A model generated the notes under the pieces. That model had not been told where the DNA came from, searched no databases, and worked only from the letters and a program-made list of their open reading frames with translations. A DNA stretch of 64,000 bases from Stygiobacter sp. RIFOXYC2_FULL_38_25 (GTDB taxonomy: Bacteria > Bacteroidota > Ignavibacteria > Ignavibacteriales > Melioribacteraceae). Every line of letters begins with the position of its first letter. The stretch's first letter is position 1. Position numbers and translations under genes: made by a program. Location: assembly GCA_001803165.1 (NCBI GenBank), contig MHAZ01000017.1, positions 124,001 to 188,000 of the forward strand, given 5' to 3'. Shown in pieces: positions 1,606-18,173 of the stretch.

Positions 1606-2709
1606 ATGTTAAACGAAAAAACCACTAAACCAAAGTTTGCAGTTATTGGGGCTGGGCATGGTGGGCTTGCTATGGCAGGTCATCTTTCCCTTATGGATTT
1701 TGAGGTTAGTCTTTACAATCGTTCGGCGGAAAGATTGTGGGGCGTGAAATCCATGGGAGGGATTACACTTGAAGGTGAAATAGAGGGATTTGGTAAAATT
1801 GACATTGCCTCGACCAATATCAAAGATGTTATTGAGGATGCTGAAATTATTATGGTTGTTGTTCCGGCTACTGCACATGAATTCATAGCTGAACAATGTG
1901 CGCCATATCTAAAAGATGGTCAAATAGTAATTCTTAATCCCGGCAGAACATTTGGCGCACTAGAGTTTAAGCAAGTTGTAAAGAGACTGGGAAACGATGC
2001 TGATGTAATTTTCGCAGAGGCACAAACATTCATTTATGCATCTCGAGTTGTAGGACCAGCTCAAGCTCATGTTTTCAGAATTAAAAACTCTATACCTGTT
2101 GCTTCCGTAAGAGCTTATCTAATTCCGAAAGTATTGAATAGACTTAGAGAAGCATATCCGCAATTCGTTGCCGGAGATAATATTTTCAAAACAAGTTTTG
2201 AAAATATTGGTGCTGTATTCCATCCGGCAATCTGCATTTTAAATTCCGGCTGGATAGAAGATGACGCAGAGTTTCAATTCTATCTTGAAGGTGTAACTGA
2301 ATCTGTTGGTCGTGTTTTAGAGAAGGTTGATTTAGAGAGAATAAAAGTAGCAGAATCACTAGGAATTAGAGCCATGAGCGCTAAAGAATGGCTTTATCTT
2401 GCATACGGTGCCCAAGGCAATAGCTTACGCGAAGCAATGAGAGCTAATCCGGGTTATCGTGGTATAATGGCTCCAAATAGACTAACAATAAGATATATAA
2501 GTGAAGATGTACCAAGCAGCTTGGTACCTATTGCATCTATCGGAAAGAAGTTTGGCATTCCTACGCCAACAATCAATTCACTTATTGAAATAGCTTCGGT
2601 TATTAATGAAACTGATTATTGGTCTGTTGGAAGAACAGTAGAAAAACTTCAAATAAATGAAATGTCTCTTAGGGAATTAAGACTCCTAGCAATAGGTGAA
2701 AAAATGTAA
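1606..2709 (+). CDS. Opine (octopine/nopaline-type) dehydrogenase family protein
   Basis: This 367-residue protein has an N-terminal Rossmann fold with GxGxxG at G15-G17-G20 ('VIGAGHGG') and a C-terminal helical domain of the octopine-dehydrogenase type. In that domain the family's conserved histidine is visible as H206 in 'NIGAVFHP'. Family members reductively join the amino group of an amino acid to a 2-oxo acid using NAD(P)H, giving an N-carboxyalkyl amino acid, or run the reverse reaction. The length is normal for the family. The start is supported by GGGAGAA five bases upstream. The next gene starts 17 bases downstream and the third follows after one base, so the three are very likely one transcript. 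No nicotianamine-synthase-like gene or metallophore exporter is adjacent, so a staphylopine-type metallophore is not indicated. The actual substrates cannot be read from sequence. Confidence 0.85.
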   Translation: MLNEKTTKPKFAVIGAGHGGLAMAGHLSLMDFEVSLYNRSAERLWGVKSMGGITLEGEIEGFGKIDIASTNIKDVIEDAEIIMVVVPATAHEFIAEQCAPYLKDGQIVILNPGRTFGALEFKQVVKRLGNDADVIFAEAQTFIYASRVVGPAQAHVFRIKNSIPVASVRAYLIPKVLNRLREAYPQFVAGDNIFKTSFENIGAVFHPAICILNSGWIEDDAEFQFYLEGVTESVGRVLEKVDLERIKVAESLGIRAMSAKEWLYLAYGAQGNSLREAMRANPGYRGIMAPNRLTIRYISEDVPSSLVPIASIGKKFGIPTPTINSLIEIASVINETDYWSVGRTVEKLQINEMSLRELRLLAIGEKM

Positions 2710-2726
2710 TTCAAAAGGAGAACGCA

Positions 2727-4370
2727 TTGAAAAAGAAAAAAATATTAGGCGCATCAATAGGCAACTGTGTACATGTTGGTGGATTATATCATTTTATGAA
2801 GATAGCGGAGGCAGAAGGTTTTGATATTGTGTTTTTGGGTCCGGCTGTTTCAATAGATAGACTAGTTGATGAAATTATATTAAACAATCCAGACATAGTG
2901 GCTATTAGTTATCGGCTAACTTCTGAAAATGCTATAAGCTTATTCGATCAACTAAAAACCCAGATTGATATATGTAAACTAGAAAAGGTAAAGTTTATAT
3001 TCGGCGGTACTACGCCTGTTGCCGAAGTAGCAAAAGAATATAATTTCTTCGCTAAAGTTTTTACTAGTGAAGATTCTGAAAGTGAAATTAAAAAATACTT
3101 GCGTGGATCAGGCACCCGAAAGATAGAGACTCAATTCCCGCAATCCCTTATTGAAAGAATTAATTCTAAATATCCTTATCCGTTACTACGCCACCATTTT
3201 GGCAGACCTACTGTAGATGAAACTATTCAAGGTGTACAAATAATTTCGGAAGCAGAAGTACTAGATGTAATTTCTTTAGGCACAGATCAGAATGCTCAAG
3301 AGCATTTTTTTCATCCTGAAAATATGATCCAATCATTAGATGGTGCCGGCGGAGTACCAATAAGAAGTAAAAATGATTTAGTGAATATCTACAAAGCGTC
3401 ACGCTGCGGCAATTATCCGCTTATGAGGTGTTACAGTGGGACAAACGATTTACTTAAATGGGCGGAAATGAGTGTTGAAACAATTAATAATGCATGGGCG
3501 GCAATTCCTCTTACATGGTATAGTGTAATGGATGGAAGATCAAAACGTTCGTTGAAGGATACAATTTCGGAAAACCAAAGTGTAATGCGTTGGTATGCAG
3601 AGAAGGGGATTCCGGTAGAAGTTAATGAGTCACATCAATGGAGTTTAAGAGATGCTCATGATTCTTTAGCTGTGGCTATGGCTTACTTAGCTGCACTTAA
3701 TGCCAAAAAGCAAGGTGTTCATAATTATGTGGCTCAGTATATGTTTAATACTCCACCGGGGACATCGCCAAGGATGGATTTAGCCAAAATGTTAGCAAAA
3801 AAAGAATTAATACAATCACTTCATGATGACAATTTTTCTTCTTTTACTGAAGTACGAGCCGGGATAGCACACTTTTCTTCAGATCCTTTTGTAGCTAAGG
3901 GACAGTTATCAGCATCTGCGGTAATATCACTTGCGCTAAATCCGCACATATTACACGTAGTTGGTTTTAGTGAAGGCAATCATGCCATAAAACCGGAAGA
4001 ATTAATTGAGAGTTGTAAAATTATTCATGGAGTATTGCAAAATTCATTACACGGTCTTCCGGATTTTTCGGTTGATAGTGTAGTACAGAAAAGAAAATAT
4101 GAACTAATTAAAGAAGCTGCTGCACTAATTGATGCAATTAAAAATTCGGCGGATAATTCTGTTGAAAATCCATTAACAGACCCACAAACAATTGCGAATG
4201 CAATAAAATCCGGTTTGCTGGATACGCCGCATTTTAAAGGCAATCCACATTTGTGCGGAAATATTTCAACACAGTTAACCAATGGTGCATGGTATGCAGT
4301 TGATTCTGAAACCGGGAATGTAATAACTGAGAAATATCGTAACGAATTAATTAATTCAAAGGAGATTTAA
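2727..4370 (+). CDS. Cobalamin-binding, mutase-like protein (B12-binding domain plus large catalytic-type domain)
   Basis: This 547-residue protein starts at TTG 2727 behind a strong AAGGAG (2715-2720). Residues 1 to about 130 resemble a B12-binding fold: a strand, then 'GNCVHVGG' with H16 as candidate lower cobalt ligand, then 'FDIVFLGPAVS' and 'PDIVAISYR'. The usual DxHxxG motif is altered, because the Asp position is Cys or Asn. Residues from about 160 to 460 look like the TIM-barrel-type partner of adenosylcobalamin mutases such as the glutamate mutase E subunit, with 'CYSGTND', 'AAIPLTWYSVMDGRS' and 'NESHQWSLRDAHD'. That would be a carbon-skeleton or aminomutase with both modules in one chain. 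This assignment is by general resemblance and the substrate is unknown. It lies between an opine dehydrogenase and an asparagine-synthetase-like ligase. The window also carries a B12-riboswitch-controlled receptor at 57-59 kb, so cobalamin uptake is likely. Confidence 0.65.
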   Translation: MKKKKILGASIGNCVHVGGLYHFMKIAEAEGFDIVFLGPAVSIDRLVDEIILNNPDIVAISYRLTSENAISLFDQLKTQIDICKLEKVKFIFGGTTPVAEVAKEYNFFAKVFTSEDSESEIKKYLRGSGTRKIETQFPQSLIERINSKYPYPLLRHHFGRPTVDETIQGVQIISEAEVLDVISLGTDQNAQEHFFHPENMIQSLDGAGGVPIRSKNDLVNIYKASRCGNYPLMRCYSGTNDLLKWAEMSVETINNAWAAIPLTWYSVMDGRSKRSLKDTISENQSVMRWYAEKGIPVEVNESHQWSLRDAHDSLAVAMAYLAALNAKKQGVHNYVAQYMFNTPPGTSPRMDLAKMLAKKELIQSLHDDNFSSFTEVRAGIAHFSSDPFVAKGQLSASAVISLALNPHILHVVGFSEGNHAIKPEELIESCKIIHGVLQNSLHGLPDFSVDSVVQKRKYELIKEAAALIDAIKNSADNSVENPLTDPQTIANAIKSGLLDTPHFKGNPHLCGNISTQLTNGAWYAVDSETGNVITEKYRNELINSKEI

Positions 4371-4371
4371 G

Positions 4372-5727
4372 ATGGCTGGAATAATTGGAATTACCGGCAT
4401 TAATCAAAATAAGGTTGCTCATGATATGCTTTCCAAAATATCACATAGAGGGAAAAATCATAACATACTTTTATTAAAAGAAGGGTTAACAATAGGCATT
4501 GCATCAAATGATCTTGGAATACTTTGCGGCGAAGTTAAGAATACGAATTTCATTTCATTATCAAATAAAACCGACTCAACTTCTGTAAAGATGGAAAACA
4601 AAAAAATAATTCTAAAAAGAGATAGATATGGAGTTGAACCTCTTTATTATACTTACCTTGATGATAACAATATTGCATTTGCCTCCGAAGTAAAAGCTCT
4701 GAACGGTTTTGGAACTATTATTCATGAACTTGAACCTGGATTTATTCTTGATAATGGGGAATTGAAAAAATACTATGAACTGCAAAAAGTTGAAGCAATT
4801 GAAATTGACCAACGCGAAACAAGTATCTTTATTAAAGAAACACTTACGAATGCAATTGTTAAAAGGATTTCAGATAATTCAATAGGTGCTTGGTTGTCTG
4901 GTGGTTTAGATTCAAGCGCTATTTCAGCTTTAGTTCGACCACATGTAAGTATGCTTCATACATTTGCGGCGGGCTTTCCCGATGCGGAAGACCTTACCTT
5001 TGCAAAAATTGTAGCCGACCATATTGGGGCGCATCATCATGAAAGAATAATATCTTTTGAAGATATTATAAAAGCTTTGCCTAATGTGATATATCATTTG
5101 GAATCGTTCGATGCTTTATTAGTTCGTTCCAGCGTGATGAATTATCTAGTTGGTCAGCTAGCCTCTGAATATGTTGATGAAGTATTCAGCGGTGAAGGGG
5201 GCGACGAATTATTTGCCGGGTATCATTATATAAAAGAACTTCCCGTAGCTCAAATAGAAGATGAGCTAATTGATATAACCAAAAGACTTCACAACACTGC
5301 TTTACAGCGTGTAGATAGATGTTCTAGCGCATTCGGTACAAACGCTCACGTCCCGTTTATAGATAATGATATGGTTGATTTAGCAATCACTATTCCGGTT
5401 GAACAGAAACTTTACAAAAAAACAGAGAAATGGATATTGCGTTTAGCTCTTGTTGATGTTCTACCCACAGAAGTGCTGATGAGACCAAAATCTAAGTTTT
5501 GGGAAGGTTCCGGAATGGGGCATCACTTTTACAGTTATGCCGAAGGTTTGATTACTGATTCGGATTTCAAACAAGAAAGAAAAATAAAATGTGGATGGGA
5601 ATTAAATTCCAAAGAAGAATTGATGTATTACAGAATATTTAAAGAGCATTTTGGTGAAATAGAAAATTTAGACTGGATGGGAAGAACTAAACTGGTAACT
5701 ACTAACGGTGAATTGAGCAAGGCATAA
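4372..5727 (+). CDS. Asparagine-synthetase-like ATP-dependent ligase without the glutaminase Cys
   Basis: The 451-residue protein has the two-domain layout of AsnB. The N-terminal domain keeps the class II glutaminase outline ('HRGKN' for HRGPD, 'RDRYGVEPLYY', 'FASEVKAL'). However, it begins 'MAGIIG' instead of 'MCGI', so the essential nucleophile Cys2 is Ala and glutamine hydrolysis should be lost. The C-terminal domain is intact by eye, with the ATP-pyrophosphatase loop SGGLDSS (176-182) and GEGGDELFAGY (274-284). This combination is known in beta-lactam synthetase and carbapenam synthetase, which adenylate a carboxylate and close a lactam. It also occurs in other AsnB-like amide-forming enzymes. 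At 451 residues it is shorter than AsnB (about 550) and those synthetases (about 500). It starts one base after the mutase-like gene. Amide or lactam formation is an inference from the missing Cys and the context. Confidence 0.8.
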   Translation: MAGIIGITGINQNKVAHDMLSKISHRGKNHNILLLKEGLTIGIASNDLGILCGEVKNTNFISLSNKTDSTSVKMENKKIILKRDRYGVEPLYYTYLDDNNIAFASEVKALNGFGTIIHELEPGFILDNGELKKYYELQKVEAIEIDQRETSIFIKETLTNAIVKRISDNSIGAWLSGGLDSSAISALVRPHVSMLHTFAAGFPDAEDLTFAKIVADHIGAHHHERIISFEDIIKALPNVIYHLESFDALLVRSSVMNYLVGQLASEYVDEVFSGEGGDELFAGYHYIKELPVAQIEDELIDITKRLHNTALQRVDRCSSAFGTNAHVPFIDNDMVDLAITIPVEQKLYKKTEKWILRLALVDVLPTEVLMRPKSKFWEGSGMGHHFYSYAEGLITDSDFKQERKIKCGWELNSKEELMYYRIFKEHFGEIENLDWMGRTKLVTTNGELSKA

Positions 5728-6151: not shown

Positions 6152-7243
6152 ATGAATCAGAATAACAAAATTCTACAAAGCATTTTTTGGGGTAATACTG
6201 TAGCTGAGTGGCTCACCGGTATTGGAGTTGCTTCGTTTACATTTATTTTGATTATCCTAGTGAAAACTTTTTTTGTTAAGCGACTTAGCATTTTTGCAGA
6301 TAGAACTACAACGGATATAGATGATTTTGTTGTTGAGATTATAAAAAAAACAAAACCTTTTTTCTTAATAGTTTTCTGCGTGTTTATTTCTTCCTTCACG
6401 CTTACACTTTCATCAACGACAACCAAAATAATTCAGAAAGTTGTTGTTCTGGCATTCCTTATACAAATTATTGTATGGGGGACCACTTTAATTAAATATG
6501 TAATTCGAAGAATGGAGAGCCAAGGAAAAGAAAATCAATTCAGTAAAACCTCTCTTGTTGTACTTGGCTATTTAGGTAAGCTATTGCTATGGTCTATAGT
6601 TGTACTTGTAGCTCTGGATAATTTGGGAGTTAACATTACTGCACTTGTTGCCGGATTAGGTGTTGGAGGAATTGTAGTAGCACTTGCTGTGCAAAGCTTA
6701 TTAGCAGATGTTCTTGCATCTCTTTCAATAGTATTTGATAAACCATTTGTAATCGGAGATTTTATTGTTGTAGAAGATTTCCTTGGAACTGTAGAATACA
6801 TAGGACTGAAAACAACTCGGATTCGCAGCCTCTCAGGCGAGCAAATTATTATTTCCAATAATGATCTCCTTCGATGTCGTATCAGAAACTATAAGAGAAT
6901 GACTGAACGTCGAGTTGTTTTTCACCTTGGAGTAATATACCAAACAACACATGAGAAACTTTCACATATCAATTCTATTGTTCGTGATATAATTGAATCA
7001 AGGGAAAATGTTCGTTTTGATAGGGTACATTTCAAAGAGTATAGTGATTGGTCGTTAATTTATGAAGTTGTTTATTATGTATTGAGTCAGGATTATAATC
7101 TCTATATGGATATTCAGCAGAAAATTAATCTGGATCTGTTCCGCAAATTTCAGGAAGAAGGGATAGAATTTGCCTACCCCACTAACAAAGTTAAAATTGT
7201 TAATGACGCAAATGATAGGCACAAAGATGCCATGAGTATATAA
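6152..7243 (+). CDS. MscS-family small-conductance mechanosensitive channel
   Basis: This 363-residue inner-membrane protein has three or four hydrophobic segments in the first 180 residues. The last, a Gly/Ala-rich helix ('AGLGVGGIVVALAVQSLLADVLASL'), is the pore-lining TM3 of the MscS family. The beta domain follows ('DKPFVIGDFIVVEDFLGTVEYIGLKTTRIRSLSGEQIIISNNDLL'), then an alpha/beta cytoplasmic domain. Such channels open under membrane tension after hypo-osmotic shock and release small solutes. The gene lies just upstream of trehalose synthesis genes and not far from NhaA and ClC transporters, so a role in osmotic adjustment fits well. The start at 6152 has no strong Shine-Dalgarno sequence. 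Confidence 0.92.
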   Translation: MNQNNKILQSIFWGNTVAEWLTGIGVASFTFILIILVKTFFVKRLSIFADRTTTDIDDFVVEIIKKTKPFFLIVFCVFISSFTLTLSSTTTKIIQKVVVLAFLIQIIVWGTTLIKYVIRRMESQGKENQFSKTSLVVLGYLGKLLLWSIVVLVALDNLGVNITALVAGLGVGGIVVALAVQSLLADVLASLSIVFDKPFVIGDFIVVEDFLGTVEYIGLKTTRIRSLSGEQIIISNNDLLRCRIRNYKRMTERRVVFHLGVIYQTTHEKLSHINSIVRDIIESRENVRFDRVHFKEYSDWSLIYEVVYYVLSQDYNLYMDIQQKINLDLFRKFQEEGIEFAYPTNKVKIVNDANDRHKDAMSI

Positions 7244-7353: not shown

Positions 7354-9615
7354 ATGAAGATTACTGTTAAACTAATTCTGGCGCTCGTTTTTGTTACCAC
7401 TCTTGTAGTTTCAATTTTCGCATATCTTCAAATGGAAAGTGAGCGTGATAGATTAAGAAACGAGCTGGATATTCGCGCTTCGATACTTGCTGAAAGTCTG
7501 CAAGAATCTGTGCAAGAATTATTACACTTAAAATCTCCTGTTAAACTTCAGCGACTCGTTAATAGATTCGGAACTAAGGATAGACTTTCGGGTGTAGTTG
7601 TTTTTGACAGTCTTGGAAAACAACTTGAATCAGTTAATACAAATATTACAACGCTTCCGGATTCCATCACTCATATTTTAGAATCCATAACTCAAAGTGA
7701 AGGTCGTTTTGATATTGTAAAACTTGGTGGGAAAACGATGCATATTTATTCCACACCGTTATTTCTTGATAATAAAGCCATAGGCGCGCTGCTGATTTTG
7801 CACGATGCAAGTTATATAGATACCCGAATTCAAAATATTTGGAGAAATAACTTTTTCCGTCTTCTTGTTCAAACACTGATGATTATTCTTACTACGGTAA
7901 TCGTTTTTCGTTTTACGATTGCCGGTCCAATCACACAAGTTGTTAAATGGATGAAGAATATTCGAACAGGTAAAACTAATTTACAAATGAGTTTACCGCG
8001 TGGTGATATTCTTAAGCCGCTGGCAGACGAAGCTGCTCTACTCGCGAAAAGTCTTTCTATCGCCAGATCTAAAGCTGAAGAGGAAGCTCGTCTTCGATTA
8101 CAGACAGAGTCTATTTGGACATCCGAACGATTGAAAGAATATATTCGTCAGGAAATAAACGATAAAAATTTAATAGTCGTTTCCAACCGCGAACCGTATA
8201 TGCATATAAAACATGGGAGTAATATTGAGTGCATTGTTCCGGCAGGCGGTTTAGTTACTGCTTTGGACCCCGTGCTAAAAGCTTGCGGTGGTGTGTGGAT
8301 TGCTCAAGGAAGCGGTGATGCTGATCAAGAAATTGTTGATGCTAATGGAAAGCTGCTTGTTCCGCCGGAAGAGCCGGCTTATTCTTTGAGGAGGGTTTTT
8401 ATTTCGAAGGAAGAAGAAGAGGGATATTACTTTGGATTCTCTAACGAAGGGATTTGGCCTCTGTGCCATATAACTCACACCAGACCTGAATTTCGTTTAG
8501 AGGATTGGATTGATTATCAATCTGTAAATCAAAAATTTGCCGATGCTGTTCTCGATGAAATTAAAGATCAAAAAGAACCATTAGTGTTAATCCAAGATTA
8601 TCATTTTGCCTTACTGCCACTGTTGATAAAATCCAAACGACCCGATGCACATGTAGCATTGTTTTGGCACATACCTTGGCCTAATCCGGAAGTGTTCGGA
8701 ATTTGCCCGTGGAAACAAGAAATTCTTCTTGGTCTTCTCGGAGCCGACGTAATTGGATTTCACATTCAATTTCATTGCAACAATTTTCTTCAAACAAGTA
8801 ACCGTTTTTTGGAATCAAAAATAAATTGGGAACAATTTACTGTTGAACGAAGAGGCGGAACCACATTGGTAAAACCATTTCCTATAAGTATTGCATTTAA
8901 AAATCATAGTATATCAGAAACAGAAGTGCTTCAGCAAAATGATTCTTCACGCGAAGTTGTTTATAAGAAGATTGGGTTCAAGGTAAAATATATTGGAGTA
9001 GGAGTAGATCGTATAGACTACACAAAAGGAATTGTTGAACGATTTAGAGCCGTTGAAAGATTCTTTGAAAAATATCCGGAATACATAGGGCAATTTACAT
9101 TTGTTGAATTAGGTGCACCAAGCCGTACACACATTAAGCGCTACCATGATTTGATTGCGGAAGTTGAAGAGATGGTTGATAAAATAAAGTGGCGTTTTCA
9201 AATAAAAGATTGGCAGCCGATAATTTTTCTAAAGGCACATCACAACCATGAGCAGATAAATCTTTTCTATAAAGCGGCAGATCTATGTATGGTAACTTCA
9301 TTACACGATGGAATGAATTTAGTTGCAAAAGAGTTTGTTGTAGCAAGAAATGATGAGGATGGTGTGTTGATACTTAGTCAATTTGCCGGTGCTTCAATCG
9401 AATTGCAAGACGCTCTTATAGTAAATCCTTATGACGTTGAAGAGATGACAAACTCAATTTATGTTTCACTAACAATGGCACCCAAAGAAAAAAAGGAACG
9501 TATGCAGAATATGCGTAATCTTATTCGTGAGCGGAATGTTTATCGCTGGGCTGCAAATTTAATTACAGCATTATCTCGAATACGCATTCAGAATAAAGTG
9601 GAAGAAAATGTTTGA
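7354..9615 (+). CDS. otsA: Membrane-anchored trehalose-6-phosphate synthase with sensor and HAMP domains
   Basis: This 753-residue fusion has a TM helix (about 5-24), an extracytoplasmic region (25-165) of the kind found in receptors, a second TM helix (about 168-188), a HAMP-like linker ('AGPITQVVKWMKNIRTGK') and a helical stretch to about 268. A GT20 glycosyltransferase domain then runs from about 272 to 745. GT20 features seen are 'VVSNREP' (R279), 'QDYHFALLP', 'WHIPWPNPE', 'GVGVDRIDYTKG' (R553, K558) and 'LHDGMNLVAKE' (D652). GT20 enzymes make trehalose-6-phosphate from a nucleotide-glucose donor and glucose-6-phosphate. The matching phosphatase starts in the stop codon of this gene. The receptor-like front suggests that synthesis is controlled by a signal at the membrane, which is inference. 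A related GT20 activity such as glucosylglycerol-phosphate synthase cannot be excluded. Confidence 0.87.
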   Translation: MKITVKLILALVFVTTLVVSIFAYLQMESERDRLRNELDIRASILAESLQESVQELLHLKSPVKLQRLVNRFGTKDRLSGVVVFDSLGKQLESVNTNITTLPDSITHILESITQSEGRFDIVKLGGKTMHIYSTPLFLDNKAIGALLILHDASYIDTRIQNIWRNNFFRLLVQTLMIILTTVIVFRFTIAGPITQVVKWMKNIRTGKTNLQMSLPRGDILKPLADEAALLAKSLSIARSKAEEEARLRLQTESIWTSERLKEYIRQEINDKNLIVVSNREPYMHIKHGSNIECIVPAGGLVTALDPVLKACGGVWIAQGSGDADQEIVDANGKLLVPPEEPAYSLRRVFISKEEEEGYYFGFSNEGIWPLCHITHTRPEFRLEDWIDYQSVNQKFADAVLDEIKDQKEPLVLIQDYHFALLPLLIKSKRPDAHVALFWHIPWPNPEVFGICPWKQEILLGLLGADVIGFHIQFHCNNFLQTSNRFLESKINWEQFTVERRGGTTLVKPFPISIAFKNHSISETEVLQQNDSSREVVYKKIGFKVKYIGVGVDRIDYTKGIVERFRAVERFFEKYPEYIGQFTFVELGAPSRTHIKRYHDLIAEVEEMVDKIKWRFQIKDWQPIIFLKAHHNHEQINLFYKAADLCMVTSLHDGMNLVAKEFVVARNDEDGVLILSQFAGASIELQDALIVNPYDVEEMTNSIYVSLTMAPKEKKERMQNMRNLIRERNVYRWAANLITALSRIRIQNKVEENV

Positions 9616-10424
9616 TGAAGAACGCTGCTCCTAAATATATTTTTAAGAATAATGATAATACTTGGGCAAATATTTTTGATGGAATAAAAACAGCCCGCCA
9701 AATTATCCTTTTCCTTGATTACGATGGTACATTGGTACCTATAATGGAGAAGCCTTCATTGGCAGTGATGTCTTATCAAATGGAAGAGATATTACGTGAT
9801 TTGAATAGAAAAGGAAACATTTCCATTTTCCTTGTTACCGGTAGAGCCCATTCAGACATTAAGAAAATATTCCGCGTAAAAGATGTTACTATCATTTCCA
9901 ATCATGGATTTCAAATTACCGGAAAGAATATAAACTGGTCTCATCCAGACATCAAGCACTTCCTTCCTTCTTTAAGGAAAACAAAATTATTGTTGATGAA
10001 GAAATTGAATTTCTTCCCATCAACTTTTTTAGAAGATAAAAGAATTACTATGACGGTGCATTTCCGAAATGCAGAAAAAAAACATATTCCTTTGTTAAAA
10101 AAGACAGTGCGTAATATTGTCGTTAACTATAAGGAAGATTTACATACCACATCTGGAAAAAAGGTAGTAGAAGTAAGACCAAATATTAGATGGAATAAAG
10201 GTGAAGCAGTACTCAAAATTATGAAGAGGCTTCGAATAAGAAATGAAGCAACTAAAATTTTATACGTTGGTGATGATAAAACCGATGAAGATGCATTCAA
10301 AGCATTAAAACATAAAGCTGTTACAATTGTTGTAGGCAGAAAACAAAATTCACATGCTAACTATTATGTTCGCAACACCGATGAAGTGCAAAAAGTGCTG
10401 CAATCAATTCATTCTATTACTTAA
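9615..10424 (+). CDS. otsB: Trehalose-6-phosphate phosphatase
   Basis: This HAD-superfamily phosphatase contains 'FLDYDGTLV' (nucleophile D35, acid/base D37), 'FLVTGR', 'KKVVEVRPNIRWNKGEAV' and the metal-binding 'VGDDKTDEDAFKAL'. These are the standard OtsB motifs in the usual order, and the length of 269 residues is normal. The ATG at 9615 overlaps the stop of the upstream synthase in the sequence TGATG, so the two are translationally coupled. A TTG three bases earlier would add one residue only. It removes phosphate from trehalose-6-phosphate to give trehalose, an osmoprotectant. The next gene starts 14 bases downstream behind AGAAAGGAG. Confidence 0.95.
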   Translation: MKNAAPKYIFKNNDNTWANIFDGIKTARQIILFLDYDGTLVPIMEKPSLAVMSYQMEEILRDLNRKGNISIFLVTGRAHSDIKKIFRVKDVTIISNHGFQITGKNINWSHPDIKHFLPSLRKTKLLLMKKLNFFPSTFLEDKRITMTVHFRNAEKKHIPLLKKTVRNIVVNYKEDLHTTSGKKVVEVRPNIRWNKGEAVLKIMKRLRIRNEATKILYVGDDKTDEDAFKALKHKAVTIVVGRKQNSHANYYVRNTDEVQKVLQSIHSIT

Positions 10425-10438
10425 GAAAGGAGTAGAAA

Positions 10439-11116
10439 ATGGTTTCTGTGAAAAAAGAGCCGTTTAAATTTTATACTCGTCAAAACATTATATACTTATT
10501 AGGGAGAAAAGCACATAATCTGGAAGAGCTTCTCAGTGGTATTAAAGAGGTTCCCGCCATGTCCATTTATCATCATACTCATCATTATTTGGAGATGCAT
10601 GAATTTTTATCTCCGGAACCGCCAAACGATTATGCTTATTGGATTACAAATATTCTTTTAGAAAAACTTTTAGGGGAAGAAGTTGCAAGCATAGATTTGC
10701 GGCAATTATCAACTATTGAAGAAATACGCTCACGGTTAATTGAAGTAATAGAATCATATCTTCAAGCAACTCAAGAAACAACTCTGCGTTATGCCCCAAA
10801 TGGACAAGAATTTCATTTTATGAGTGCACGTACTTTTGTTTTTCCTACAAAATACAAAGCGATTGATTTGAAACAATTTTTAAAATATCTAAAAAAAGTT
10901 TCTCTCCATTCTATTTACTTCCATGTGTTTGAAGCCGGACTTGAAAAGCAAATTCCGGATTTTGCGACATGGCTTTCATCATCGTTAAATGAGAGTACAC
11001 TTGCAAAAGAATTCAGAAAAATGGATCCCTATACGCAAACGCTTGAAAATCTGAGACAAACGCTTATCAAAATAGTTGAAAACAGATTGAAGGAGATAGA
11101 AAATGGTAACTCTTAA
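10439..11116 (+). CDS. DUF5752-like protein next to TreT
   Basis: This 225-residue soluble protein has a His-rich segment near residue 42 ('IYHHTHHYLEMHEFLSPEPPNDYAYW') and Leu-rich helices ('LEELLSGIKEVP', 'SRLIEVIESYL'). As I know it, the pattern matches the DUF5752 family, whose members lie beside trehalose-type glycosyltransferases and have no assigned activity. The Shine-Dalgarno sequence is AAAGGAG. Its last 14 bases overlap the start of treT, so the two proteins are made together and may act together. The clustered histidines could bind metal or form an active site, which is speculative. Confidence 0.65.
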   Translation: MVSVKKEPFKFYTRQNIIYLLGRKAHNLEELLSGIKEVPAMSIYHHTHHYLEMHEFLSPEPPNDYAYWITNILLEKLLGEEVASIDLRQLSTIEEIRSRLIEVIESYLQATQETTLRYAPNGQEFHFMSARTFVFPTKYKAIDLKQFLKYLKKVSLHSIYFHVFEAGLEKQIPDFATWLSSSLNESTLAKEFRKMDPYTQTLENLRQTLIKIVENRLKEIENGNS

Positions 11117-12323
11117 AGAATATGAAAAGTATGTCGGCGCCGATGTTCTATATGAACTTGAATTGTATGCGGCTAAACTTAAAGGTGTCTCCATACAAAA
11201 TATAAATTCAACTGCTGTTGGCGGCGGCGTAGCCGAAATTCTCAATAGAATGATTCCGCTCCTTCACCAGCTTGGTGTTAACGCAAGCTGGGATGTTATT
11301 AAAGGTGGCGAGAGATTTTTTGAAGTAACTAAAAAAATGCATAATGCTCTTCATGGTAAAGCGGAAATATTTACAAAAGAGGAGACCGATCTTTATCTTG
11401 AGACAAATGAAATGAATGCTAATGTTTTAGATAATGACGCCGATATTTATTTCATACACGATCCTCAACCATGCGCGTTAATTCGGAATAAAAAAAAGAA
11501 GGATAGCTGGATATGGCGGTGCCATATAGATTTTTCCAACCCCGATCTATTTACCTGGGATTATTTAAAACAATTTATTGAACAGTATGATGTAGGAATA
11601 TTTTCGGCACCATCTTTTGCTCGTAACTTAAAAATTCCGCAAGTATTAATCTCGCCTTCTATTGATCCGCTAAGTAATAAAAATAAAGAGTTGCCGCAGG
11701 AAACTATAGATTCTGTTCTGGAAAAATTTAATATAGATAAGAAACGACCGATAGTTACTCAAATATCCCGTTTCGATTATTTGAAAGATCCGGTAGGAGT
11801 AGTAAAAGTTTTTAGGCAAGTTAAAAAATATATTGATTGTCAACTTGTACTTGCAGGCGGAGGTGCTACCGATGATCCGGAAGGCTCTCAAGTACTGGCT
11901 GAAGTTCAAGCTATTGCTGAAAACGATCCGGACATATTTCTCCTACTTCTCCCTCCGGCAAGCGATATAGAAATCAATGCTCTTCAACGCGCTTCAACTG
12001 TGGTTCTTCAGAAATCATTAAGGGAAGGCTTTGGATTAACTGTTGCAGAAGCACTTTGGAAATCAAAACCGGTTATTGCAGGAGCAGTTGGCGGAATCCC
12101 ACTTCAAATCTCTCACAAGTATTCCGGACTTTTAACTCATACAATAGAAGGAACTGCATTTGCACTTAAACAATTACTTCAAAATCCGGAGTATGCAAAA
12201 AAACTTGGAGAGAATGGTCGTGAACTTATCAGAAAGAATTTTTTAATAACGAGGCATTTGAGAGACTACTTATTATTATTTCTTTCACTTCTGAACAAAA
12301 AAGAGGACATAGTTTATTTATAA
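11103..12323 (+). CDS. treT: GT4 glycosyltransferase, trehalose synthase TreT type
   Basis: This 406-residue retaining glycosyltransferase opens with the TreT-like 'INSTAVGGGVAEILNRMIPLLHQLGV' segment and has 'DIYFIHDPQP', 'WRCHIDFSNP', 'ISRFDYLKDPVGVV' and the donor-site helix 'REGFGLTVAEALWKSKPVI' near the C-terminus. TreT joins nucleotide-glucose and glucose into trehalose directly, without a phosphorylated intermediate. This is a second trehalose route beside OtsA/OtsB. The start at 11103 lies inside the preceding DUF5752 frame behind a GGAGA. A different disaccharide-phosphorylase-like GT4 activity cannot be ruled out. Confidence 0.82.
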   Translation: MVTLKEYEKYVGADVLYELELYAAKLKGVSIQNINSTAVGGGVAEILNRMIPLLHQLGVNASWDVIKGGERFFEVTKKMHNALHGKAEIFTKEETDLYLETNEMNANVLDNDADIYFIHDPQPCALIRNKKKKDSWIWRCHIDFSNPDLFTWDYLKQFIEQYDVGIFSAPSFARNLKIPQVLISPSIDPLSNKNKELPQETIDSVLEKFNIDKKRPIVTQISRFDYLKDPVGVVKVFRQVKKYIDCQLVLAGGGATDDPEGSQVLAEVQAIAENDPDIFLLLLPPASDIEINALQRASTVVLQKSLREGFGLTVAEALWKSKPVIAGAVGGIPLQISHKYSGLLTHTIEGTAFALKQLLQNPEYAKKLGENGRELIRKNFLITRHLRDYLLLFLSLLNKKEDIVYL

Positions 12324-12546: not shown

Positions 12547-14349
12547 ATGGAAATAGGACCGAAATACAAAACTAATGGAGATTGCGAGTTTGTTGTATGG
12601 GCTCCTTTCAGAAAATTATCACTACAATTACTCACACCAAAAGAACAAATCTTTCAAATGGAGAAGGACGAAAAAGGTTTTTGGAGAGCAACCATTGAAA
12701 ATATTCAACATGAGGTATGCTACCGTTACATCTTAGATTCAAGTTTGATACGACCTGATCCGGCTTCACATTTTCAACCTTATGGTATTTATAATGCATC
12801 GCAAACAGTAAATCATGTATTATTTAATTGGAATGACGGTGATTGGAAAGGAATTGATTTATCCAGTATGATTATTTATGAATTGCATGTAGGGACCTTT
12901 ACTGCGGAAGGAAATTTCGAAGCAATTATTCCTCGTCTTGAAGAACTGAGATCCATTGGTATCAACTCTATTGAATTAATGCCAATTGCACAATTTCCGG
13001 GAGAAAGGAATTGGGGATATGACGGTGTTTTCCCATTTGCAGTACAAAATTCATATGGTGGTCCAATTGGTTTGAAAAAACTAGTGAATGAATGCCATAA
13101 AAAAGGATTGGCGGTTATTCTAGATGTAGTATATAATCACCTCGGTCCGGTAGGAAACTACCTTTCTGATTTTGGTCCATACTTTACAGACAAATATAAA
13201 ACGCCTTGGGGCAATGCAATTAATTATGACGGACAATACAGTGATCTTGTACGAAATTATTTTATTGAGAATGCTCTGCATTGGTTTAGAAATTATCATA
13301 TTGATTCGCTCCGCCTTGATGCTGTACACACTATTTATGATAAAAGTGCTAAACCGTTTCTCAAAGAACTTGCAATGTGCGTAAGAGATTATTCTAAAGA
13401 GCAAGGACGCGATTTCTATTTAATCGCTGAAAATGATCTGAGAAATTCCGGAATGATACAACCAGCTGCACTTACCGATTATGGAATCAATGCTCAATGG
13501 TGTGACGACTTACATCATTGTCTGCATGCAATTCTTACCGGCGAACACATTGGATTTTATGCCGACTTCGATAGTGAGCAAAAACTGGTTCAGTGTATGA
13601 AAAATGGTTATATAAGCTTAAATAGGAAAACGCAATTGGAAAGCGAAAATTTTAATGATATGCAATTTGTGGTTTATTGTCAGAATCATGATCAAATAGG
13701 AAATCGAATTTATGGAGAAAGACTGTCATCCTTAATTTCTTTTGAAGCTCTTAAACTTGCGGCAGGTATTGTAATACTATCACCATTTATTCCTCTGCTT
13801 TTTATGGGTGAAGAATTTGCGGCAGACTCACCTTTTTTATACTTCGCAAACTACTCTAATCATTATTTAACTGAAGCCGTTAAAAAAGGAAGACTTGAGG
13901 AATTTAAAAAAATCGGTTTGATAGGAACACAATCCGATCCGTTCGAAATAGAAACATTCATTAGTTCGAAATTAAAGTGGGAATCTAGAACTAGCGGCAA
14001 TCATAAAATCATGTTAAAATTCTACAAACATCTTTTACAGTTAAGAACTTTATTGCCGGTTCTTTCAAACTTGGATAGAAGCTGCATGGATGTTGATATT
14101 ATAGATAATACAAATGTAATAGTAATGAGAAGATGGGCTGATGAACATTCCGTACTTATAATGTTAAATTTTAACAAGATGGATATTACTTTTAAACTAT
14201 ATGCACCCCCAGGACGATGGGGGAAAATTCTTGATTCAGCCGATATTTTATTCGGCGGACCGGGAACTCTTATGCATTCATCATTCGTTACTGGCGACTT
14301 TATAACTTTAAGGTGCAATAGCGTTTCAGTACTAAACAAAGTCGAGTAA
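12547..14349 (+). CDS. treZ: Malto-oligosyltrehalose trehalohydrolase
   Basis: This 600-residue GH13 enzyme has an N-terminal CBM48-like domain ('CEFVVWAPFRKLSLQLL', 'CYRYILD', 'RPDPASHFQP'). A TIM barrel follows with 'YELHVGTFTAEGNFEA', 'IELMPIAQFPGERNWGYDGVF', nucleophile D258 ('SLRLDAVH'), acid/base E295 ('LIAEND') and D382 ('QNHDQIGNR'). 'ELHVGTFT', 'PGERNWGYDGV' and the length fit TreZ, which releases trehalose from maltooligosyl-trehalose. Its usual partner TreY is not in the window, so either treY lies elsewhere or the enzyme works on another glucan as a branching-type relative. No Shine-Dalgarno sequence is visible, but the start matches the usual TreZ N-terminus. It lies directly after the trehalose genes. 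Confidence 0.85.
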   Translation: MEIGPKYKTNGDCEFVVWAPFRKLSLQLLTPKEQIFQMEKDEKGFWRATIENIQHEVCYRYILDSSLIRPDPASHFQPYGIYNASQTVNHVLFNWNDGDWKGIDLSSMIIYELHVGTFTAEGNFEAIIPRLEELRSIGINSIELMPIAQFPGERNWGYDGVFPFAVQNSYGGPIGLKKLVNECHKKGLAVILDVVYNHLGPVGNYLSDFGPYFTDKYKTPWGNAINYDGQYSDLVRNYFIENALHWFRNYHIDSLRLDAVHTIYDKSAKPFLKELAMCVRDYSKEQGRDFYLIAENDLRNSGMIQPAALTDYGINAQWCDDLHHCLHAILTGEHIGFYADFDSEQKLVQCMKNGYISLNRKTQLESENFNDMQFVVYCQNHDQIGNRIYGERLSSLISFEALKLAAGIVILSPFIPLLFMGEEFAADSPFLYFANYSNHYLTEAVKKGRLEEFKKIGLIGTQSDPFEIETFISSKLKWESRTSGNHKIMLKFYKHLLQLRTLLPVLSNLDRSCMDVDIIDNTNVIVMRRWADEHSVLIMLNFNKMDITFKLYAPPGRWGKILDSADILFGGPGTLMHSSFVTGDFITLRCNSVSVLNKVE

Positions 14350-14975: not shown

Positions 14976-16193
14976 ATGCGAAATAGAATAAAAAACGGCT
15001 TAACTAAACTAAAAATAAAACAACTTGATCTGTTTAAAGATTTTACAGAAAGCGAAAAATCATCCGGTTACATGCTGATTTTGTTAACAATAATTTCGTT
15101 GGCTATAGCAAACAGTTCTCTTGGTTCAGATTATATTAAAATGTGGCATAGCTATCTCAATTTATCCTTTTCGGAAATTCAGCTTAATTACAGTATAGAA
15201 CATTGGATTAATGATGGTCTGATGGCAATATTCTTTCTTCTGGTTGGGTTAGAAATTGAAAGAGAAATATATTCCGGTGAATTGTCTTCAATTAAAAAAG
15301 CAATCTTACCGGTTATCGCTGCCGTTGGCGGAATGATAGTCCCGGCAGCAATTCATTTTCTATTGAATACCGGAACTTCTACAGAAAGAGGATTCGGTAT
15401 TCCTATGGCTACTGATATAGCTTTTACACTTGGAATATTATCTCTACTTGGTAAACGTATCCCAATCTCTCTCAAAATATTTATTACTGCTCTAGCAATT
15501 ATTGATGACCTAGGAGCCATTGTTGTTATTGCGTTATTTTATTCCACTGATGTGTCGTTAGCGTATTTACTCGGTGCCTTCGGTGTGTTTATCGTTTTAT
15601 TGTTAATGAATAGCGCGAAAATAAATAGGCTAACACCCTACTTGGTTTTAGGTGTCGTTATGTGGTATCTAATGCTAAAATCCGGGGTGCATGCAACCAT
15701 AGCAGGTGTTTTACTTGCATTTGCAATTCCATTTAGTAAAAACGAGTTAGATAATATCTCCGTCACTTTACAAGAAAGACTTCATAAACCGGTTGCATTT
15801 TTTATTTTACCTCTTTTTGCCTTGGCTAACACAGCTATTATTTTGCCGGATAATATTGTTAACAGCTTAACTACAAATAATTCCTTAGGAATAATATTGG
15901 GTCTTTTCTTTGGGAAACCATTGGGAATATTTTTGTTTTCGTATGCGGCTGTAATTTTTGGTGTGAGTCAATTACCGGAAGGAATTAATTGGAAATTAAT
16001 CTTTGGCGCTGCAAGTCTTGCCGGCATAGGATTTACAATGTCCGTTTTCATAGCAAACCTTGCTTTTACTGATGGTGATATAATTGTGGGCAGTAAGATG
16101 AGTATAATCGTTGCATCAGCTATTTCAGCTTTAGCAGGTCTTTTGATACTTACTTTTATCACTAAGATTAAAGTAAAAATAAATTTTGATTGA
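14976..16193 (+). CDS. nhaA: Na+/H+ antiporter NhaA
   Basis: This 405-residue inner-membrane protein has about 12 hydrophobic segments and clear NhaA signatures: 'FFLLVGLEIEREIYSGEL', 'GIPMATDIAFTLGIL' and 'ALAIIDDLGAIVVIALFY', with the ion-binding aspartate pair D177-D178. The C-terminal half carries 'GVHATIAGVLLAFAIP' and 'FGKPLGIFLFS'. It exchanges cytoplasmic sodium for protons and protects against salt and alkaline stress. Its place after the trehalose genes and before a ClC transporter fits a salt-tolerance block. The start is preceded by only a weak purine stretch. Confidence 0.96.
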   Translation: MRNRIKNGLTKLKIKQLDLFKDFTESEKSSGYMLILLTIISLAIANSSLGSDYIKMWHSYLNLSFSEIQLNYSIEHWINDGLMAIFFLLVGLEIEREIYSGELSSIKKAILPVIAAVGGMIVPAAIHFLLNTGTSTERGFGIPMATDIAFTLGILSLLGKRIPISLKIFITALAIIDDLGAIVVIALFYSTDVSLAYLLGAFGVFIVLLLMNSAKINRLTPYLVLGVVMWYLMLKSGVHATIAGVLLAFAIPFSKNELDNISVTLQERLHKPVAFFILPLFALANTAIILPDNIVNSLTTNNSLGIILGLFFGKPLGIFLFSYAAVIFGVSQLPEGINWKLIFGAASLAGIGFTMSVFIANLAFTDGDIIVGSKMSIIVASAISALAGLLILTFITKIKVKINFD

Positions 16194-16370: not shown

Positions 16371-18173
16371 TTGAACAAACTGATCAAATACCTAAAAGTA
16401 AACTCATCTCATAATCTTAATAAATCGGTTAGGTTTTTAAAAAGCAGACTTGGGCATAAAACCTTCTTAGTTATTGCAAGTCTTTTTGTTGGAGTTCTTT
16501 CCGGATTGGCTGCGGTGTTACTAAAAAATCTGGTGCACTTTTTCCAGCGTGAACCCAAAATCTTCTTCACTCAAATTGGTTTGCAGTTTTTGCTTCCGGT
16601 TACTCCACTTATCGGAATTTTACTTTCCGTTTTACTTATCAATGTTGTGTTCAAAGGGAAATTTACTCGCGGACTGAGTAACCTTATCTATTTTATTGTT
16701 AGAAAAAATTCGGATGTGCCACGCCGGAAAATACTTTCGCATCTGCTTACCAGCGCCGCAACTGTTGGTATGGGTGGTTCAGCAGGACTTGAAGCTCCAA
16801 TCGTTCTCATCGGCTCATCAATCGGGTCTAACGTTGCAAAAGATTTGAAGCTGAATTATAAAACAAGAACACTTTTGCTTGCGTGCGGTTCAGCCGCGGG
16901 CATCTCGGCAATTTTTAATAGTCCGATTGCCGGAGTAATTTTTGCCGTTGAAGTTCTTCTGCCGGAAATTACTATCAGCTCGTTCATACCATTGCTAATT
17001 GCTTCGGCTTCATCTGCGGTGCTTTCAAAATTTCTTTACAGCGGACAGTTATTCTATTTGGTAACAGAGGGCTGGCATCTTTATGCAATCCCATATTATA
17101 TCGTCTTAGGAATTCTCTGCGGTTTAATTTCTTTGTATATGATAAAGTCCACTTTTTTGCTGGAAGACTGGATAGGGAAGTTTAAGAAACCATATTTGAA
17201 AGCAACTGTTGGCGGAATAATTTTGTGCGTTTTGATTTTCTTATTGCCACCCCTATACGGCGAAGGTTACTCAACTGTTGTTGACTTACTGAAAGGGAAT
17301 CAATTCGGATTATTGGATGGGAGCTATTTCAATTTTTTGGGAGATATTAATCTTTCGCTGTTGTTTGTTCTTGCTCTAATAATTCTGTTTAAAGTAATCG
17401 CTACTTCTTTTACGCTCGGTTCAGGAGGGAATGGCGGAATTATTGCGCCATCTTTATTTACCGGTGCGATAACTGGATTCTTCTTAGCTAAACTTTTTAG
17501 CTATTTAGGAATTGTAGAACTCAATCATGCAAATTTTTTGGTTGTGGGAATGGCTGGGATACTGAGTGGAGTCTTGCATGCACCGCTAACCGGAATATTC
17601 TTAATTGCAGAAATAACCGGCGGCTACACATTAATAGTTCCATTAATGATTGTAGCTGCACTATCATTTTTTATTTCAAAGTACTTTCATCCGGAGTCTA
17701 TTTACACAACAGCCTTAGCAAGAAGAGGAATTAAATTTCGCTCTGAAAAGGAAAAATATTTTATCCAGCAGACAAATCTGGAAGACCTTATAGAGAAAGA
17801 CTTTGAGTGCATAAATCCGAAACAAAGTTTACGCGAACTTTCTAAAAAGATTGCACAGACAAAACGAAATTTATTTCCGGTTGTGAATGAGCAAAAAAGC
17901 CTGGTTGGAATTATTACGCTTGATGATATTAGAGAAGTGATGTTAAACTCTGAGATGTATGATATTATTCTGGCTTATGAGATTATGAACACGAGTTTTC
18001 AATCTGTAGAAATGAATACCGATATAAACACAGTAATGGATATTTTTGAGAAAAAACAAATATGGAATCTCGCTGTAACGAATAAAGGTGAATATGTTGG
18101 CTTTATTTCAAAATCAAACATCTTCAATAAATTCATTTCGGTTTGGGCGGAACAGCACCATGACGAAATTTAA
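16371..18173 (+). CDS. ClC-family chloride channel/antiporter with C-terminal CBS pair
   Basis: This 600-residue protein starts at TTG 16371 behind AGAAGGA. The membrane part (about 30-440) has the ClC selectivity signatures 'GGSAGLEAPIV' with gating glutamate E141, 'GSAAGISAIFNSPIAGVIFAVE' and 'GSGGNGGIIAPSLFTGAI'. The last 130 residues form two CBS motifs ('FPVVNEQKSLVGIITLDDI', 'LAVTNKGEYVGFISKSNIF'), which often bind adenine nucleotides and regulate transport. The gating glutamate is present, as required for Cl-/H+ exchange, but channel and antiporter cannot be told apart safely by eye. It follows nhaA and is plausibly part of ion homeostasis under salt stress. Confidence 0.92.
   Translation: MNKLIKYLKVNSSHNLNKSVRFLKSRLGHKTFLVIASLFVGVLSGLAAVLLKNLVHFFQREPKIFFTQIGLQFLLPVTPLIGILLSVLLINVVFKGKFTRGLSNLIYFIVRKNSDVPRRKILSHLLTSAATVGMGGSAGLEAPIVLIGSSIGSNVAKDLKLNYKTRTLLLACGSAAGISAIFNSPIAGVIFAVEVLLPEITISSFIPLLIASASSAVLSKFLYSGQLFYLVTEGWHLYAIPYYIVLGILCGLISLYMIKSTFLLEDWIGKFKKPYLKATVGGIILCVLIFLLPPLYGEGYSTVVDLLKGNQFGLLDGSYFNFLGDINLSLLFVLALIILFKVIATSFTLGSGGNGGIIAPSLFTGAITGFFLAKLFSYLGIVELNHANFLVVGMAGILSGVLHAPLTGIFLIAEITGGYTLIVPLMIVAALSFFISKYFHPESIYTTALARRGIKFRSEKEKYFIQQTNLEDLIEKDFECINPKQSLRELSKKIAQTKRNLFPVVNEQKSLVGIITLDDIREVMLNSEMYDIILAYEIMNTSFQSVEMNTDINTVMDIFEKKQIWNLAVTNKGEYVGFISKSNIFNKFISVWAEQHHDEI

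Follow-up and report, generated by a model that had tools for sequence, protein, structure and literature searches.

Layout of the locus

The window analysed here, a stretch of 64,000 nucleotides from Stygiobacter sp. RIFOXYC2_FULL_38_25, carries a gene whose product joins a receptor-like N-terminal half to a trehalose-6-phosphate (T6P) synthase of the GT20 family (Table 1). The architecture of this fusion protein, its conservation, its membership of a single fusion clade, its kept active-site residues and its gene setting were all computed here. The fusion is the one GT20 gene found in the genome, and it runs directly into otsB: the stop codon TGA (9613-9615) and the otsB ATG (9615-9617) have one A in common. 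The open reading frame (ORF) caller places the otsB start at a TTG at 9612, the ATG at 9615 being the likelier start.

Table 1 Features of the fusion gene and its neighbourhood (positions in the window; residues are those of the fusion protein; AS1 and AS2 are the two HAMP helices)
Feature	Position	Strand	Basis
Receptor-fused GT20 trehalose-6-phosphate synthase, 753 aa	7354..9615	+	ORF with ATG start, Pfam GT20, recurrent fusion
Transmembrane (TM) helix 1, residues ~5-25	7366..7428	+	Hydropathy
Extracytoplasmic single-Cache/PAS-like domain, WalK type, residues ~26-160 (~135 residues), as modelled	7429..7833	+	AF2 model, VIA, profile match
TM helix 2 (TM2), residues ~167-187	7852..7914	+	Hydropathy
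Degenerate HAMP, residues ~188-240: AS1 188-205, connector 206-219, AS2 220-240	7915..8073	+	hhalign, heptad test
Conserved coil, residues 241-256	8074..8121	+	Conservation in 18 rows
Helix 257-267 and link into first GT20 strand	8122..8166	+	Models
GT20 catalytic region, residues 272-741	8167..9576	+	Pfam, Foldseek, OtsA-equivalent site residues
TGATG stop/start overlap onto otsB	9613..9617	+	Sequence
otsB, trehalose-6-phosphate phosphatase	9615..10424	+	Pfam E 5.1e-48; TIGR00685 151 bits, cut-off 68
DUF5752 protein, recurrent treT neighbour	10439..11116	+	Pfam E 2e-60, synteny
TreT-like trehalose synthase (GT4)	11103..12323	+	Pfam TreT_GT1 E 2.9e-55
TreZ	12547..14349		653.7 bits, cut-off 538.8
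MscS-type mechanosensitive channel, 110 bases upstream of fusion gene	6152..7243	+	Pfam MS_channel E 1.8e-18
NhaA-type Na+/H+ antiporter	14976..16193	+	Pfam E 1.1e-140
ClC-type channel/transporter with CBS	16371..18173	+	Pfam E 1.8e-78

Receptor half, linker and enzyme

By hydropathy, all 18 fusion N-termini, that of the window protein included, have two main membrane helices, one around residues 3-25 and the other around 167-185; some rows of the alignment show overlapping secondary peaks, and one (L043) a weak peak within GT20. An AlphaFold model of the 271-residue N-terminus, built on the 18-row alignment (mean predicted local distance difference test score (pLDDT) 79, predicted template modelling score (pTM) 0.56), begins with a long helix (residues 2-59) and a Cache/PAS-like sheet (78-151), and continues through a helix (153-205) and a loop (206-220) into two further helices (221-254 and 257-270). 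WalK was ranked top by both Foldseek and VIA-align: the integrative WalK model 9a5d aligned with 264 of the 271 residues (VIA Z 16.1, root-mean-square deviation 5.3), the receptor-domain crystals 4ywz, 5is1 and 7dud reached Z 16.1, 15.6 and 15.2, and KinD, CitA, DctB and others lay behind at Z 13-14. The order typical of a single-Cache fold, a long helix and then a Cache/PAS sheet, is therefore present, with VIA Z 13-16 to WalK, KinD, CitA and DctB. The preliminary description, which had read two TM helices and an extracytoplasmic domain from the sequence, is borne out on both by the hydropathy of the 18 N-termini and the WalK-like model.

Profile comparisons lead to the same family. Searched against PDB sequences, the alignment profile retrieved WalK domains first (E 0.001 to 0.01, with 5is1 at 0.001), followed by GSU0935 and, weakly, DcuS; two of the eight matches were unrelated and weak. 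The NCBIfam WalK model matched 16 of the 18 N-termini (best E 4.3e-13), and Pfam, over the same rows, listed two each for sCache_like (best E 0.0078) and dCache_3 (best E 1.4e-4). The protein is not a complete WalK, scoring 32.9 bits with NF033092 (cut-off 725), and GT20 is the only domain found behind the coil. Its N-terminal half thus models as a WalK-type single-Cache receptor.

HAMP domains are built from two amphipathic heptad helices separated by a connector of about 14 residues, with a proline in AS1 and a glycine at its end, and the linker that follows TM2 has each of these features. Its heptad hydrophobicity was reached by 22 of 10,000 shuffles for helix 190-205 and by 2 of 10,000 for helix 220-240, P192 in AS1 is found in 17 of the 18 rows (at least 16 by the 90% conservation line), and G206 in all 18. 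When hhalign set the 18-row fusion family against the 15 above-threshold HAMPs of the same genome, 50 columns aligned in register with a score of 25.9 (probability 54%, E 1.3e-4), and the best of 100 column shuffles scored 15.6. The hhalign comparison, the heptad shuffles and the helix-loop-helix of the model agree in supporting the linker as a degenerate HAMP, if a sub-threshold one; the coil behind it is polar and strongly conserved. Residues invariant in the 18 rows include A237 in AS2 and, within the coil, A241, A245, R248, W255 and T256. The HAMP-like linker of the preliminary description accordingly stands in degenerate form, by hhalign, heptads and model, and fails as a Pfam-grade HAMP.

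The enzyme half belongs firmly to GT20: Pfam PF00982 covers residues 272-741 at E 1.3e-117 (393.9 bits, cut-off 32.5), and Foldseek matched a full-length model (pLDDT 74, pTM 0.57) to the T6P synthases of Mycobacterium thermoresistibile (5jio), E. coli (1uqu) and Candida. Identity to E. coli OtsA (K-12 sequence) is 30%. The OtsA positions R10, Y77, W86, D131, H155, R263, K268, D362 and E370, which we take to be active-site residues, are invariant in all five rows aligned, with R279 of the fusion equivalent to OtsA R10; helix 257-267 ends about 12 residues before this first active-site arginine, and a stretch like it also precedes GT20 in one receptor-less sister and in an Aminobacter protein. 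The score with the OtsA equivalog TIGR02400 is below its cut-off (420.7 bits against 564.85), and the protein is therefore filed as GT20 and not as an OtsA equivalog; from its sequence it is probably a T6P synthase, on a GT20 branch of its own. Because the active-site residues are kept and otsB is adjacent, it is predicted to form T6P from nucleoside diphosphate (NDP)-glucose and glucose-6-phosphate.

Constraint differs along the fusion. Across 16 rows, pairwise identity averages 0.36 in the extracytoplasmic domain, 0.60 in TM2, 0.54 in AS1, 0.40 in the connector, 0.59 in AS2, 0.68 in the coil and 0.69 in GT20. Ratios of nonsynonymous to synonymous substitution (dN/dS) of 0.05-0.29 in the receptor parts, where computable, denote purifying selection, synonymous change being near or at saturation in all pairs other than L047-L049. 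In that closest pair the ratio is 0.145 for TM2, HAMP and coil together. This looks like the pattern of a varying sensor over a kept transmitter, a pattern that falls short of proof of gating.

Recurrence, descent and gene setting

We searched genome samples of the class and of the phylum Bacteroidota with the whole fusion protein, alongside separate scans of plasmids, viral contigs and GTDB contigs. Among 391 class genomes, sampled from a larger group, at least 17 contain a match running from residue 1 into GT20; at most two candidates were scored per genome, so that these fusion counts are lower bounds. The match ends at residues 743-753 in 16 of the 17 and stops with the contig at residue 642 in G504, and two genomes hold a second copy (full in G078, partial at a contig edge in G671). 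The 16 relatives that were aligned from end to end share 48-70% identity with the window protein. At least 4 of 395 genomes of the phylum sample match over the full length, all four being among the class 17. A frame in G294 (L129, G294:C25:4041-4514) matches receptor residues 1-159 (26% identity, E 5.8e-12); this genome was left out of the count because the match stops at the contig end (4521), and the frame is a candidate for either a divergent fusion or another receptor.

Phylogenetic analysis of 63 GT20 rows groups all 19 rows that carry the fusion, from 18 loci and the partial second G671 copy, into one clade (support 98/91; one change, 96% in 200 bootstrap replicates); long branches in the outer part of the tree drew a warning from the program. 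The clade spans six GTDB families (f1, f4, f5, f10, f14 and f19). Recurrence in 17 of 391 class genomes places the architecture beyond chance, and the union of a receptor architecture with a GT20 enzyme, as read in the preliminary description, is supported by that recurrence together with the structure and profile comparisons and the single clade.

Thirteen receptor-less class proteins adjoin the fusion clade through a weakly supported join (92/62). In these the match starts at residue 253-254, preceded by 0-22 further residues according to which start codon is taken. Outside this sister group, a GT20 protein of an Aminobacter plasmid (WP_286299173.1, L067:8890-10710) is 49.8% identical from residue 222 onwards and carries one hydrophobic helix at its N-terminus, which makes it a naturally anchored form. 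Eight further class GT20 loci (L121-L128), several of them with long open frames, showed no receptor in their 5-126 in-frame upstream residues, which by eye look like non-coding read-through, and 24 phylum loci (L008-L031) had no receptor-sized extension, the longest stretch ahead of the match being 124 residues; one of them, L011, has a short hydrophobic upstream stretch of uncertain coding status. Beyond these samples, 359 plasmid records matched, none spanning 80% of the query among the best 40 of the 359 listed, 292 pattern stretches on viral contigs included no relative, and a GTDB contig scan with short exact peptide patterns from one protein found one relative, apparently genome G589 (L042 and L032 agreeing in all that was compared). 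HAMP-GT20 proteins are possible in other phyla.

Gene neighbourhoods were compared across 17 related fusion loci (from 16 genomes) and 12 receptor-less loci (8 close and 4 distant). Because the loci are related and the stretches read differ in length, several contigs ending nearby, these counts describe a setting and are not statistics. In 16 of the 17 fusion loci otsB is next to the fusion gene, lying upstream of that gene in L036; the remaining locus is cut off by its contig end within GT20. This adjacency, one case of which is a fragment, and the TGATG overlap itself uphold the earlier proposal that OtsB is coupled to the enzyme. The fragment lies in one of the two G078 fusion loci, where only an N-terminal piece of otsB is present (L033:9484-9804) and the gene looks broken. 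TreT lies downstream in 11 of the 17 fusion loci and DUF5752 in 8.

The MscS gene is distributed differently. A match to the window MscS (blastp, E<=1e-5) was found in none of the 17 related fusion loci within the stretch read. A MscS gene directly follows the GT20 gene in five of the eight close receptor-less loci and heads the cluster in three of the four more distant ones. In the receptor-less sisters L037, L038, L104, L105 and L106, MscS follows GT20 inside the trehalose cluster, and the two ORFs as called overlap in L037 and L038. L093, L101 and L102 have NhaA matches (that of L101 on the other strand), L092 has one of 68 residues only, and ClC was matched on the opposite strand in L032 and L034. 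Taken together, the neighbours (MscS, NhaA, ClC, OtsB and TreT) suggest osmotic or ionic stress.

Several further features of the region were noted. The DUF5752 gene sits immediately before treT at 8 of the 17 fusion loci and at 11 of the 12 loci without a receptor, and its product may be a TreT partner; we found no paper on DUF5752, which Pfam gives as of unknown function. No TreY above its cut-off was detected anywhere in the genome, leaving TreZ as an orphan maltooligosyltrehalose trehalohydrolase. Upstream, window positions 1606-5727 hold in a row octopine-dehydrogenase-like, B12-binding and asparagine-synthase-like genes, the B12-binding one with a sub-threshold match to methylaspartate mutase E. 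A promoter and terminator scan returned 38 promoter-like sites against 34.3 in shuffles, and its result was not used.

A proposed receptor enzyme and its alternatives

We favour, with a probability of roughly 0.58, the reading of this product as a one-protein receptor enzyme, in which Cache domain, TM2, degenerate HAMP and coil are joined to a GT20 T6P synthase and bring it under the control of a cue. A cue from outside the membrane, most likely one linked to osmotic, ionic or envelope stress, would reach the Cache domain and alter how HAMP and coil pack in a dimer. This change would be relayed by the coil and helix 257-267 to the strand bearing R279, in the acceptor half of GT20, raising or lowering T6P synthesis, and the coupled OtsB would then convert T6P to trehalose. 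Signalling through a dimer, gating, the direction of the effect and the stimulus are the parts of this scheme that we infer. The suggestion in the preliminary description that a stimulus such as osmolarity directly gates synthesis thereby stays a prediction, one in keeping with the neighbouring genes and with a transmitter conserved in the manner of a functional part. More tentatively, and at a little under even odds, the fusion would be a receptor with an osmolyte enzyme as its direct output, gating trehalose post-translationally with no kinase, second messenger or transcriptional step, and the MscS encoded in the same operon as the receptor-less sister enzymes would act in a matching membrane-stress role.

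Several observations weigh against a receptor enzyme of this kind. The preliminary description had named a HAMP prediction below threshold as evidence that would count against it, and this is what Pfam returned: with PF00672 (gathering score 25 bits) the window protein was absent from the matches up to E<=10, and only two of the 18 family rows appeared, below the gathering score (best E 0.081). Where all 15 HAMPs of this genome have a glutamate in the DE pair, the 18 fusion rows have I, L, V or F, so that the pair is no longer acidic throughout, with D218 kept in 16 of the 18. A continuous heptad coil from HAMP into GT20 was considered and found unsupported, since heptad hydrophobicity across the entire 220-254 stretch was non-significant (877 of 5000 shuffles), and the coil is non-hydrophobic beyond residue 241. 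In the receptor itself, the window protein passes no Pfam Cache-type cut-off (LapD_MoxY_N 14.6 bits of 25), 9a5d is itself a partly computed model, and the extracytoplasmic domain is less constrained than the enzyme (dN/dS 0.29 against 0.065 in L047-L049). The enzyme also occurs receptor-free, since close sisters lack the receptor and the Aminobacter form has one TM helix.

The main rival draws on these last points. In this view the N-terminal half serves chiefly as a tether, placing the T6P synthase, with OtsB and perhaps MscS, at the membrane, and the sensor exerts no control. The single helix of the Aminobacter relative, which has no sensor, is consistent with anchoring, as are the position of MscS right after the enzyme in close receptor-less loci and the status of the sensor as the least conserved domain. 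A bare anchor, however, would have no need of Cache, HAMP and coil, yet the entire receptor layout matches WalK, the coil and HAMP helices are conserved nearly like the enzyme, with A237, A241, A245 and R248 invariant, and the architecture persists as a single clade across six GTDB families. We therefore consider anchoring alone unlikely, if the most serious competitor. Less probable still is a receptor half that serves another partner, such as a WalK-like kinase or membrane regulators, or that reports sugar-phosphate outward, with the enzyme running at a constant rate. Here the best match is WalK, which 9a5d models with its partner YycH, and the same genome encodes a HAMP protein of 635 aa that shows 24% identity at its N-terminus to fusion residues 2-93; against this, no kinase-like neighbour stood out in the synteny comparison, in which only homologues of window genes were sought, and GT20 is the sole cytoplasmic domain found behind the coil.

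That a missing stop codon or a misassembly fused a receptor gene to the enzyme can hardly be credited. The assemblies are mostly multi-contig, but the identical junction occurs in 17 of 391 genomes and 16 relatives are 48-70% identical along their whole length; recurrence and the single clade rule out such an artefact or read-through.

Set beside known systems, the putative receptor enzyme resembles WalK/YycG-type sensor histidine kinases, its best structural and profile match, in the order TM1, single-Cache, TM2, HAMP and helix, and differs from them in having no detectable kinase part, a GT20 sugar enzyme as output and a degenerate HAMP. With OtsA and other GT20 enzymes (E. coli 1gz5, M. thermoresistibile 5jio) it shares the GT20 fold, the active-site residues and OtsB next door, whereas it carries a membrane receptor in front and sits below the OtsA equivalog cut-off. 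The related Aminobacter GT20 has the same WT-E motif before the catalytic part and one N-terminal hydrophobic helix, but neither extracytoplasmic domain nor HAMP. A soluble counterpart is mycobacterial OtsA, which is reported to be under allosteric control by soluble metabolites (PMC6879718). Among the matches listed in our literature search, judged by titles and the starts of abstracts, we found no published receptor- or HAMP-linked T6P synthase.

HAMP receptors are known for kinases, chemotaxis and nucleotide second messengers, and in receptor enzymes with cyclase or diguanylate-cyclase outputs the receptor, HAMP and coil sit directly on the catalytic domain. Where those enzymes make second messengers, the fusion would make the precursor of a bulk osmoprotectant. 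If our favoured reading is true, it would be a sense-and-make device, a receptor acting straight on bulk osmoprotectant synthesis with no relay in between. A Cache/HAMP stimulus would then be testable by plain enzyme assay, giving HAMP signalling an easily read output, and the natural variants of the enzyme (with a receptor, with a single TM anchor, or soluble with MscS next door) would offer a ready comparison.

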